From: an uncultured Hyphomicrobiales bacterium
Lineage (GTDB): Bacteria; Pseudomonadota; Alphaproteobacteria; Rhizobiales; Beijerinckiaceae
Length of the DNA: 64,000 nucleotides
Direction: 5' to 3'
Assembly (NCBI GenBank): GCA_903930675.1
Contig: CAIYZJ010000078.1
Location: forward strand, 1-64,000
In this document: positions 25,976-27,948 of the stretch, in pieces
Position numbering within the stretch: position 1 is the stretch's first letter
Layout of the letters: each line of letters begins with the position of its first letter
Made by a program: the position numbers and the translations under genes
Notes under the pieces: model-generated
What the model was told of the DNA's origin: nothing
Database searches by the model: none
The model's input: only the letters and a program-made list of their open reading frames with translations

Positions 25976-26743
25976 TCACAGCACCGAGATCATGCCGCCG
26001 TCGACATAGATGACCTGACCATTGACATAATTGGAGGCGGGAGCCGCCAGAAACACCGCCGCGCCGACCAATTCTTCCGGCATGCCCCAGCGTTTGGCTG
26101 GCGTGCGGCCCTTGACCCAGGCATCGAAGGCAGGATTGTCAATCAGAGCCTGATTCATATCGGTGATCATATAGCCCGGACCGATCGCATTGGCCTGCAA
26201 TCCGCTCGCCGCCCATTCAGCCGCCATCGCCTTTGTCAGCAATTTGATGCCGCCTTTGGAGACGGTGTAGGGCGCCACCGTGGCGCGCGCCAGTTCCGAG
26301 GTCAGCGAAGCAATATTGATGATCTTGCCATAGCCGCGCGGGATCATGCGCTTGGCGGCTTCGCGGCCGATCACGAAGGCGCTGGTCAGATTGGTTTCGA
26401 GGACCGAGCGCCATTCCGGCGTGGTCAGTTCCACCATCGGCTTGCGCAGCTGGATACCGGCATTGTTGACCAGAATATCGACATGCACGCCTGCCGCATC
26501 CAGCGTATCGAAGGCTTTGGTAATGGCGGCTTCATCGGTGACATCGAACACGCAGGCCCGCGCCTGATGACCCTTGGCCACCAATTCGGACACCGCCTGA
26601 TCGACCCGCCCCGCCGTGGTGCCGTTGATGATGACGGCTGCACCCGCATCGGCCAGACCTTCGGCAATGGCCCGCCCCAAACCGCGCGACGAGCCGGTGA
26701 CAAGCGCCGTGCGGCCCGTCAGATCAAACAGGGGATTGGTCAT
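25976..26743 (-). CDS. SDR oxidoreductase, gluconate 5-dehydrogenase-like
   Basis: A 255-residue short-chain dehydrogenase. It has the cofactor motif TGSSRGLGRAIAEGL, NNAG, the catalytic Ser in INIASLTSE and YTVSK (Tyr and Lys). The segments AMAAEWAASGLQANAIGPGY and FDAWVKGRTPAKRWG closely follow gluconate 5-dehydrogenase (Gno/IdnO), which interconverts gluconate and 5-ketogluconate. Start ATG 26743 has GGAAGGAAA upstream. No gluconate kinase or permease is adjacent, so the sugar acid could differ. Confidence 0.88.
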   Translation of the reverse strand: MTNPLFDLTGRTALVTGSSRGLGRAIAEGLADAGAAVIINGTTAGRVDQAVSELVAKGHQARACVFDVTDEAAITKAFDTLDAAGVHVDILVNNAGIQLRKPMVELTTPEWRSVLETNLTSAFVIGREAAKRMIPRGYGKIINIASLTSELARATVAPYTVSKGGIKLLTKAMAAEWAASGLQANAIGPGYMITDMNQALIDNPAFDAWVKGRTPAKRWGMPEELVGAAVFLAAPASNYVNGQVIYVDGGMISVL

Positions 26744-26928
26744 GGTGTTTCCTTCCGGTGTTTTTATAAATGATGCATGTGCGATGATGACCGGACGTTC
26801 GGGCAGGAACCTTTCATTGTCAACACAAGGCCATGCAGGACAGCGTCGACACCGTATCCGCTCCCGACCAGACCGGACACCGACAAATGGCCTAAGCCAT
26901 AAAGCCAGCATTGTTTTGCAACGCACAA

Positions 26929-26942
26929 TTGATCCAGATCAA
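26929..26942 (+). promoter_or_regulatory. FNR/Anr/FixK-type binding site
   Basis: TTGATCCAGATCAA is an exact match to the consensus TTGAT-N4-ATCAA for FNR/FixK/Anr proteins. Its centre is 66 bp upstream of the ATG of a 36-codon gene on the plus strand. This leaves room for a class II promoter with transcription starting near 26977; TAATCC at about 26960-26965 is a possible -10. It predicts induction at low oxygen. Confidence 0.75.
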
Positions 26943-27001
26943 AGCATGCCCTTTTTCAATAATCCTAAATCATGGCATCACGCTGTACAGGGGAGGATCG
27001 C

Positions 27002-27112
27002 ATGTCAGCCGGAGAACAAGCCTATCTCATTATCGCCATCGGTTCTTTTTCGTTGTTTGCTTTGACTGTGTTCTATTTCGATCTGACCACCAACCGCAAC
27101 TCGTCCAAATAG
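27002..27112 (+). CDS. 36-residue single-helix membrane peptide under FNR-type control
   Basis: A short gene with an excellent ribosome-binding site, GGGGAGG five bases before the ATG. The product begins MSAGEQAYLIIAIGSF, has one transmembrane helix (about 8-27) and ends in a short polar tail, TTNRNSSK. It has its own promoter-type signal (a perfect FNR box upstream) and its own terminator downstream, so the transcript seems to be monocistronic. Size, topology and regulation resemble small subunits of terminal oxidases (CcoQ-, CydX-like), but no oxidase gene is near. I do not recognise a named family. Confidence 0.8.
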   Translation: MSAGEQAYLIIAIGSFSLFALTVFYFDLTTNRNSSK

Positions 27113-27169
27113 GCCCGCTTGCGTCTGTCTATAGCCGGACGTGCTGATGGATTGTTCGCGCCTGCCTGA

Positions 27170-27202
27170 CCTGACCAAGCCCCGTGCTTGTCAGGTCTTT
27201 TT
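27170..27202 (+). terminator. intrinsic terminator after the 36-codon gene
   Basis: CCTGACCAAGC pairs with GCTTGTCAGG (one unpaired base) around a short CCCGT loop, followed at once by TCTTTTTT. It sits about 60 bp after the small gene. Confidence 0.85.
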
Positions 27203-27306
27203 TATGGCGCAGGGCTGAATGCGGGACGCACGAAAGCGCGATGATTGTTTTGCGCAAAAAAGCCTGTTACGCCTGATCGTGTTACTCATTGCGCAGGGCC
27301 TTTGTG

Positions 27307-27948
27307 ATGCAATCCACTCCGGTGATCCTTTTCGATCTTGACGGCACCCTGACCGACCCGAAAGCGGGCATTACCCGCTCGTTTCAATATGCGCTGGAAT
27401 CAATGGGCCAGCCTGTGCCTTCCGAAGATGATCTGGAATGGGTGATCGGCCCCCCGTTGCGCGCCAGTTTTGTGACCCTGGTGGGCGAACAGCTGGCCGA
27501 TGACGGCGTCCGGCTCTATCGCGAGCGTTTCGGCGTGACCGGCCTGTTTGAAAACGAGCTGATCGACGGCATCCCGCAACTGCTCGAACAGTTGCAGGCC
27601 GACGGCAAGTACATGTGTGTTGCCACCTCGAAACCGGAGGTTTTTGCAATCCGCATCGTCGAACATTTCGGATTGAGCCGGTTTTTTGGCCGCGTTTATG
27701 GCTCGGAACTCGACGGCACCCGCGTCGACAAGCGCGATCTGCTGCCCTATGTCCAGCAACAAGAGGGCTTTGCCTCTCATCAGGCGGTGATGATCGGCGA
27801 CCGCAAACATGATGTGATCGGTGCAAAATCCATCCATGTGCCGACCGTCGGCGTGCGCTGGGGTTATGGCTCGGATGAGGAGCTCGTGGCTGCGGGCGTG
27901 CATCGTCTGGTTGACCACCCTTCCGAAATTGCCACGCTGGTGCTGTGA
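27307..27948 (+). CDS. HAD-superfamily phosphatase (phosphoglycolate phosphatase-like)
   Basis: A 213-residue HAD hydrolase. Motif I is LFDLDGTLTD (nucleophile and acid aspartates), motif II the threonine in VATSKPE and motif IV MIGDRKHDVIGA. The helical cap lies after GITRSFQYAL, as in Gph/PpaX-type subfamily IA phosphatases. The substrate may be phosphoglycolate, pyrophosphate or a nucleotide. ATG 27307 is preferred, with GTG 27304 just before it. It precedes the LVIVD gene by 136 bp. Confidence 0.87.
   Translation: MQSTPVILFDLDGTLTDPKAGITRSFQYALESMGQPVPSEDDLEWVIGPPLRASFVTLVGEQLADDGVRLYRERFGVTGLFENELIDGIPQLLEQLQADGKYMCVATSKPEVFAIRIVEHFGLSRFFGRVYGSELDGTRVDKRDLLPYVQQQEGFASHQAVMIGDRKHDVIGAKSIHVPTVGVRWGYGSDEELVAAGVHRLVDHPSEIATLVL

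Follow-up and report, generated by a model that had tools for sequence, protein, structure and literature searches.

A short gene behind an FNR/FixK-type box

The window, that is the whole 64,000-nt stretch of DNA analyzed here, is part of a 65-kb contig from a genome of 3.01 Mb that is 98.4% complete. Between a divergent gene for an SDR oxidoreductase upstream and a gene for a HAD hydrolase downstream, it hosts a compact unit composed of a palindromic box, a ribosome-binding site, a frame of 36 codons and a terminator (Table 1). A preliminary description of this DNA had read these elements as a complete stand-alone unit in which FNR controls the gene of a small one-helix membrane protein. All four elements were confirmed, including the perfect match of the box and the strength of the terminator, and the gene as a whole is supported and conserved in frame.

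Table 1. Positions of the features of the microprotein gene within the window
Feature	Position	Strand	Basis
FNR/FixK-type palindrome TTGATCCAGATCAA (TTGAT-N4-ATCAA)	26929..26942	+	perfect box, 59 nt before the start codon
Putative -10 region and start site, class II FNR promoter	26960..26977	+	spacing only
Shine-Dalgarno-like GGGGAGG	26990..26996	+	read in the sequence; 5 nt before ATG 27002
36-aa one-helix membrane protein MSAGEQAYLIIAIGSFSLFALTVFYFDLTTNRNSSK	27002..27112	+	frame, relatives, helix prediction
Intrinsic terminator, bulged stem and T6	27168..27203	+	folding compared with shuffles

Perfect palindromes of this kind occur 12 times in the genome, while the reversed control pattern does not occur at all. 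As several of these palindromes fall within long frames (on C43, C215 and C235, for instance), a single box is weak proof when taken alone. If transcription starts near 26977, the centre of the box would fall at about -41.5; a sigma-70 scan of the locus found no promoter. Purine-rich stretches, judged by eye, precede the start codon in most relatives of the gene. An alternative reading of 46 amino acids from the ATG at 26972 also exists, and it was rejected because its ten extra residues lie outside the family start and because it would begin upstream of the transcription start that the box implies.

The terminator consists of a stem at 27168-27197 with one bulge, followed by six T, and folds with -18.1 kcal/mol (z-score -3.94); none of 200 shuffled sequences folded equally well. 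A simple terminator scan did not list this hairpin, and a similar hairpin sequence with a T tract is visible by eye in a related genome of the same genus (G002).

Relatives across the Alphaproteobacteria

A search with the single peptide sequence identified relatives in three of the four other genomes of the genus (G001, G002 and G004). Identity to the window peptide is 81% in G002 and 59% in G004, and the copy in G001 is cut by the end of a contig; the fourth genome, G003, which is 85% complete, gave no match. Outside the genus, the same search, whose sensitivity is low, returned a convincing relative in only one of 31 genomes of the family, G032, which belongs to another genus. The window and G002 differ by 5 synonymous and 7 non-synonymous codons out of 36, a weak coding signal by itself. 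By eye, their alignment is best preserved in the box, the ribosome-binding site, the reading frame and the terminator.

We chained profile searches, from a four-row profile run on the order to a 12-row profile (A2) and then a 46-row profile, both run on the class. The first profile (A1) matched 124 of 297 genomes of the order at E <= 1, mostly as noise; 18 matches were inspected and the ten with a short frame and a plausible start were fetched, their boxes having already been seen. A2 matched 54 of 385 genomes of the class at E <= 0.05, our own included, and these matches are not circular because the window's own sequence is the sole row of A2 that comes from the class sample. The 46-row profile matched 93 of 385 genomes at E <= 0.1. 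At E <= 1e-3, the search for the peptide in other alphaproteobacteria that the preliminary description had called for found relatives in 41 of 384 other genomes of the class, with E-values that are partly circular since many of these carriers supplied rows to the profile. Weaker matches, with E-values from 0.001 to 0.1, mostly represent pieces of longer frames and do not count among the 41 carriers; three of them (G330, G562 and G679) were fetched as probable carriers and searched for cydA.

Distant relatives retain the majority consensus M-[ST]-x-[GA]-E-x-x-[YF]-L-x-x-V-x-x-A-F-x-x-F-A-x-x-L-A-[WY], and the frame, its start and the hydrophobic pattern are kept in relatives as distant as other families. 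It is the persistence of this pattern, rather than the codon differences with G002, that makes a strong case for a gene, and we are nearly certain that the frame is really translated.

Beyond the class, eight of the 200 genomes in a phylum sample were matched at E <= 0.01; as listed, this sample holds many genomes from the same order and may include few outsiders. The two matches outside the class (G732 and G856) were discarded, as they lie inside frames of 312 and 353 amino acids. A scan of named genomes for the box together with the motif returned 30 loci, 20 of which we recognized by eye as members and 10 as chance frames from other groups or from an unlabelled bacterium. The members are labelled as Rhizobiales/Hyphomicrobiales, Beijerinckiaceae, Hyphomicrobiaceae, Rhodospirillales, Reyranellaceae, Kiloniellaceae, Acetobacteraceae/Asaia, Aquibaculum (Rhodospirillales), plain Alphaproteobacteria and Proteobacteria. 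Because the box was required by the scan, these loci are no evidence for the box itself. Named carriers include Aquibaculum arenosum CAU 1616 and Skermanella mucosa KEMB 2255-438, which should make the family directly testable.

The tblastn search that had also been proposed, run on plasmids with the window peptide, gave two weak matches, in Skermanella and Shewanella, of which the former was taken further. The Skermanella peptide matched itself and S. rosea, and the peptides of G032, G386 and L089 matched nothing in the plasmids. On S. mucosa pSM-3 (L045:3700-4111) and S. rosea pSR-3 (L250:2687-3111), the box lies 56-57 nt before a first small gene, annotated as hypothetical and encoding about 48-52 amino acids (METFLFVLLG...). 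The family member comes next and is missing from the gene table, so that the two appear to form a two-microprotein operon, beside genes for a sigma factor and a ChrR-type anti-sigma factor. The earlier expectation that gene callers would miss the gene is suggested by these two copies without a listed feature, in a gene table (PLSDB) that is itself incomplete.

Conservation of the box and its candidate regulator

In G002, G004 and G032, the start codon follows a perfect box at a distance of 54-63 nt. To obtain an unbiased set, we relied on the 29 best-scoring of the 53 non-own genomes matched by A2, that is by the protein profile alone. Sixteen of these 29 relatives have a perfect TTGAT-N4-ATCAA in the 160 nt upstream and six more have a box with one mismatch. 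The pattern TTGAY-N4-RTCAA occurs within 150 nt of the start in 23 of them and ends 50-70 nt before it in 22, which bears out the proposal of conserved upstream FNR boxes. It is absent at 50-70 nt from seven relatives and within 150 nt from six. In three of these six (G636, G450 and G337) a box is present in degenerate form, 55-57 nt from the start; one (G424) has a degenerate box further off, and the remaining two (G403 and G671) have nothing close.

When all 59 fetched loci are considered, some of which were picked with the box in view and three of which are doubtful as relatives, TTGAY-N4-RTCAA is found within 150 nt in 41 and at 50-70 nt in 36. The 659 kb around these loci contain 57 such sites, 42 of them in the 150 nt before family genes. 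The positional background over these loci is 2.3e-4 per position for a perfect box at the spacing concerned, and 1.6e-3 when up to one mismatch is allowed. It is this linkage of box and gene across the family that marks the unit of the window as more than chance.

The window genome encodes one HTH_Crp_2 regulator at E <= 1e-6, located on C304 in 5' of ccoN. Its product carries a cysteine cluster, CSHHVKGEDCRLCLIRPLSVC, which we take to be of the kind found in FNR proteins. Similar regulators with such cysteines are encoded in G002 and G004, close before a cbb3-like COX1 gene. Other perfect boxes of the window genome lie in 5' of ccoN, identified by search, and of hemN-like and NarK-like frames, identified by eye, all of which are typical FNR targets. 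The NarK-like transporter frame on C48 (L168:2522-2605) is preceded by two perfect boxes 70 nt apart. On C130 (L170:1047-2504), a perfect box lies just upstream of a 485-aa frame on the minus strand that resembles, by eye, a haem-binding dehydrogenase subunit.

Overall, the sequence makes it very probable that the microprotein gene is under FNR or FixK control. As FNR and FixK have a common target sequence in Alphaproteobacteria, according to an excerpt of PMC2908626, different lineages may rely on different regulators. In G537, the one HTH_Crp_2 regulator found (L236) lacks an N-terminal cysteine cluster and instead has a cysteine-rich tail at its end, CHFCDLEIAKNCSQAGKENCPHC, which is an unusual arrangement.

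A predicted one-helix membrane protein

AlphaFold2 models the peptide as a single helix over residues 3-34 (mean pLDDT 87.5, pTM 0.46), and the best hydropathy over 19 residues is 2.03, at residues 8-26. In 44 of the 46 aligned members (0.957; some rows are shortened) the C-terminus carries a more positive net charge than the N-terminus, which argues for an orientation with the N-terminus outside and the C-terminus inside. Over residues 5-26, conservation is periodic with a maximum near 100 degrees, a modest signal that was equalled in 153 of 5,000 shuffles. Conservation along one face suggests a docking face, and would point to a protein partner rather than to a general effect on the membrane.

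None of the 46 members has a convincing family in Pfam or NCBIfam, where the best E-values are 0.02 and 0.003, respectively, and each family touched concerns only one or two of the members, with unrelated names. The family profile has no match among PDB chains at E <= 10. In the open papers covered by the terms used, we recognized no description of the family; hypothetical genes of the published FnrL regulons, as given in excerpts of PMC4634722 and PMC2908626, could include a relative. The protein family thus appears to be undescribed in the libraries and papers searched, while a low-oxygen microprotein with one helix is, as a kind of thing, known. Excerpts of PMC10117765, PMC9104464 and PMC7876108 mention SEP20, CydP and CcoH, which are other small proteins linked to oxidases.

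Possible role at low oxygen

We propose that, when oxygen falls, the FNR-type regulator encoded beside ccoN would bind the box at its predicted promoter position and switch the gene on, a step that the sequence strongly supports. The peptide would then insert its predicted helix into the membrane with the acidic N-terminus outside and the basic C-terminus inside, as its charges suggest. The conserved face of the helix (E5, Y/F8, L9, V12, F16, F19, L23 and W/Y25) would dock onto a larger respiratory-chain protein of the membrane and adjust the stability or the activity of this partner under low oxygen. The link to respiration derives from the logic of the regulon and from precedent, and the docking from the analogy with YnhF/CydY and CcoM, as far as these are described in excerpts of PMC6853902 and PMC10433244. 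On balance, we favour this FNR-switched, helix-docking respiratory microprotein as the best explanation of the whole. The narrower assignment as a helix-docking modulator of a respiratory membrane complex, argued by analogy, seems to us evenly poised.

The main alternative is a role in feedback or membrane stress, in which a hypoxic peptide would alter the state of the membrane, as YohP does, or restrain a sensor kinase such as FixL. We consider it unlikely, if worth keeping in view. The first frame downstream of the gene in G570 and G649 encodes a PAS histidine kinase; the one in G570 looks by eye like FixL and is followed by a response regulator that looks like FixJ. In G330 and G610 a Crp/FNR gene is the next frame on one side. 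YohP offers a precedent, with reduced membrane potential and metabolic silencing in the account excerpted from PMC12719787. However, relatives of the window-genome FNR occur in only five of 57 neighbourhoods (G649, G330, G610, G570 and G403), and the conservation of one face of the helix speaks for a protein partner.

More generally, clusters of neighbouring proteins are mostly lineage-specific and are not conserved beyond lineages. This clustering left out three weak loci (G465, G674 and G346), the first of which is counted among the 41 carriers by its E-value. A Pfam tally of the nearest neighbours, which covered 107 of 108 frames and left out a 1771-aa frame (L156:6240-11552), revealed no dominant family among the 25 of 97 families shown, with a top count of 6 out of 107. 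The nearest downstream frame within 900 nt lies on the opposite strand in 36 of 54 loci, which fits a stand-alone unit. In G537, the box is flanked by the microprotein gene and by a divergent frame that matches Usp weakly (E = 2.7e-6).

The preliminary description had imagined an accessory subunit of a terminal oxidase encoded elsewhere. This specific claim is weakened by what follows, which leaves room for an A-type oxidase, another core complex or a target other than an oxidase. A subunit specific to cbb3, similar to CcoM of Pseudomonas stutzeri, is in our view clearly improbable. It would agree with the presence of cbb3 in the window genome, where ccoN and the microprotein gene have the same type of box, and with the higher frequency of ccoN in carriers (28 of 41, compared with 101 of the 292 genomes that the profile did not match at E <= 0.1; P-value 5.6e-5, Fisher test, uncorrected for kinship or genome size). 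Yet ccoN is absent at E <= 1e-20 from 13 of the 41 carriers in the class, among them G386, which is 100% complete, and G537, which is 100% complete in one contig. Moreover, a search of the 57 neighbourhoods with CcoN, CcoO and CcoP from the window genome gave no match at E <= 1e-5, and the PDB chains without a match to the family profile include the known cbb3 chains. Among the cases seen, ccoN comes closest to the gene in G330, at about 8 kb, in a genome whose match is weaker and which is not one of the 41 carriers.

An N-terminal stretch of CcoN in the window genome, TWGEGGLAAVMAAFAVFALLIAA (L175:4621-4800, on C304), resembles the peptide with a best domain of 7.1 bits. This candidate link was dropped, as the other 26 CcoN frames reach at most 3.5 bits; four of the 31 CcoN loci (L181, L196, L205 and L206) gave no frame and were left out of the comparison.

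A subunit of cytochrome bd, of the CydX or CydY type, is highly improbable: its size and one-helix design fit and cydA is present in 29 of the 58 genomes searched (our own and 57 carriers or probable carriers), but no cytochrome bd gene (PF01654, E <= 1e-20) was found in the window genome (G000), G002, G004 or G032, which contradicts this role for the window genome unless the gene lies in missing sequence, and no family of bd small subunits is among the Pfam and NCBIfam matches of the 46 members at E <= 1. It is equally hard to believe that the FNR-activated transcript is a small RNA with an incidental frame, as the shortness of the unit and its strong terminator might suggest, given that frame, start and hydrophobic pattern persist in other families and that Rfam has no match at E <= 0.1 in 26700-27400.

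Returning to the helix-docking microprotein, the partner is probably something that all carriers have, for example an A-type oxidase or another core complex, and not cbb3 or bd specifically. Nine of the 41 carriers, the one-contig genome G537 among them, have neither ccoN nor cydA, so that neither oxidase is a necessary partner across the family unless missing sequence holds these genes. In eight of the nine there is a single COX1 homologue, with A-type-like scores (E about 1e-161 to 1e-167, compared with about 1e-116 for cbb3 genes); in the ninth, G636, which is 86% complete, no COX1 homologue was found. The A-type oxidase is common in the class and its presence in carriers is therefore not discriminating. 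A widespread hypoxia-induced helix that would modulate a mitochondrial-type A-type oxidase or another core complex, with an FNR or FixK-type switch depending on the lineage, is in this precise form a tentative and quite doubtful version. It would be a bacterial counterpart of the hypoxic oxidase modulators of mitochondria.

The family deserves attention because of its wide conservation with the switch and of the evidence against a simple cbb3 or bd subunit. Gene and oxygen switch are kept together across many alphaproteobacterial families and the protein is absent from the family libraries searched, which marks a gap in a well-studied regulon. Since the family also occurs in genomes in which no cbb3 and no bd was found, identifying its partner could show how the remaining respiratory chain of Alphaproteobacteria is tuned to low oxygen.

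Comparison with known systems

Among small one-helix proteins, the microprotein resembles CydX, an oxidase subunit, and CcoQ/FixQ, the product of an FNR-controlled operon. It differs from CcoQ/FixQ because a distinct CcoQ-like frame can be seen by eye directly after ccoO in the window genome, and because only one of the 46 members touched FixQ (PF05545, E = 0.14). It differs from CydX, which is encoded in the cyd operon of E. coli according to an excerpt of PMC6853902, in that no such family was matched and no cydA was found in its own genome.

YnhF/CydY, described in the same excerpt as a fourth subunit of the E. coli bd oxidase that is made at low oxygen and encoded away from the oxidase operon, is similar in its one helix, in its production at low oxygen, which for the microprotein is predicted, and in the position of its gene outside the operon of the oxidase (PMC6853902). 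The two differ in that the window genome has no bd gene that we could find and that the Pfam, NCBIfam and PDB searches returned no sequence relation. CcoM, a subunit of the P. stutzeri cbb3 oxidase, also has 36 amino acids and is tied to oxygen-limited conditions in the excerpted text of PMC10433244, whereas the microprotein has carriers without ccoN and no sequence match in the PDB. Finally, YohP, a stress-related membrane peptide of 27 amino acids in E. coli, can be likened to the microprotein by description, and differs from it in being tied to starvation and stationary phase in the part of PMC12719787 that describes it.
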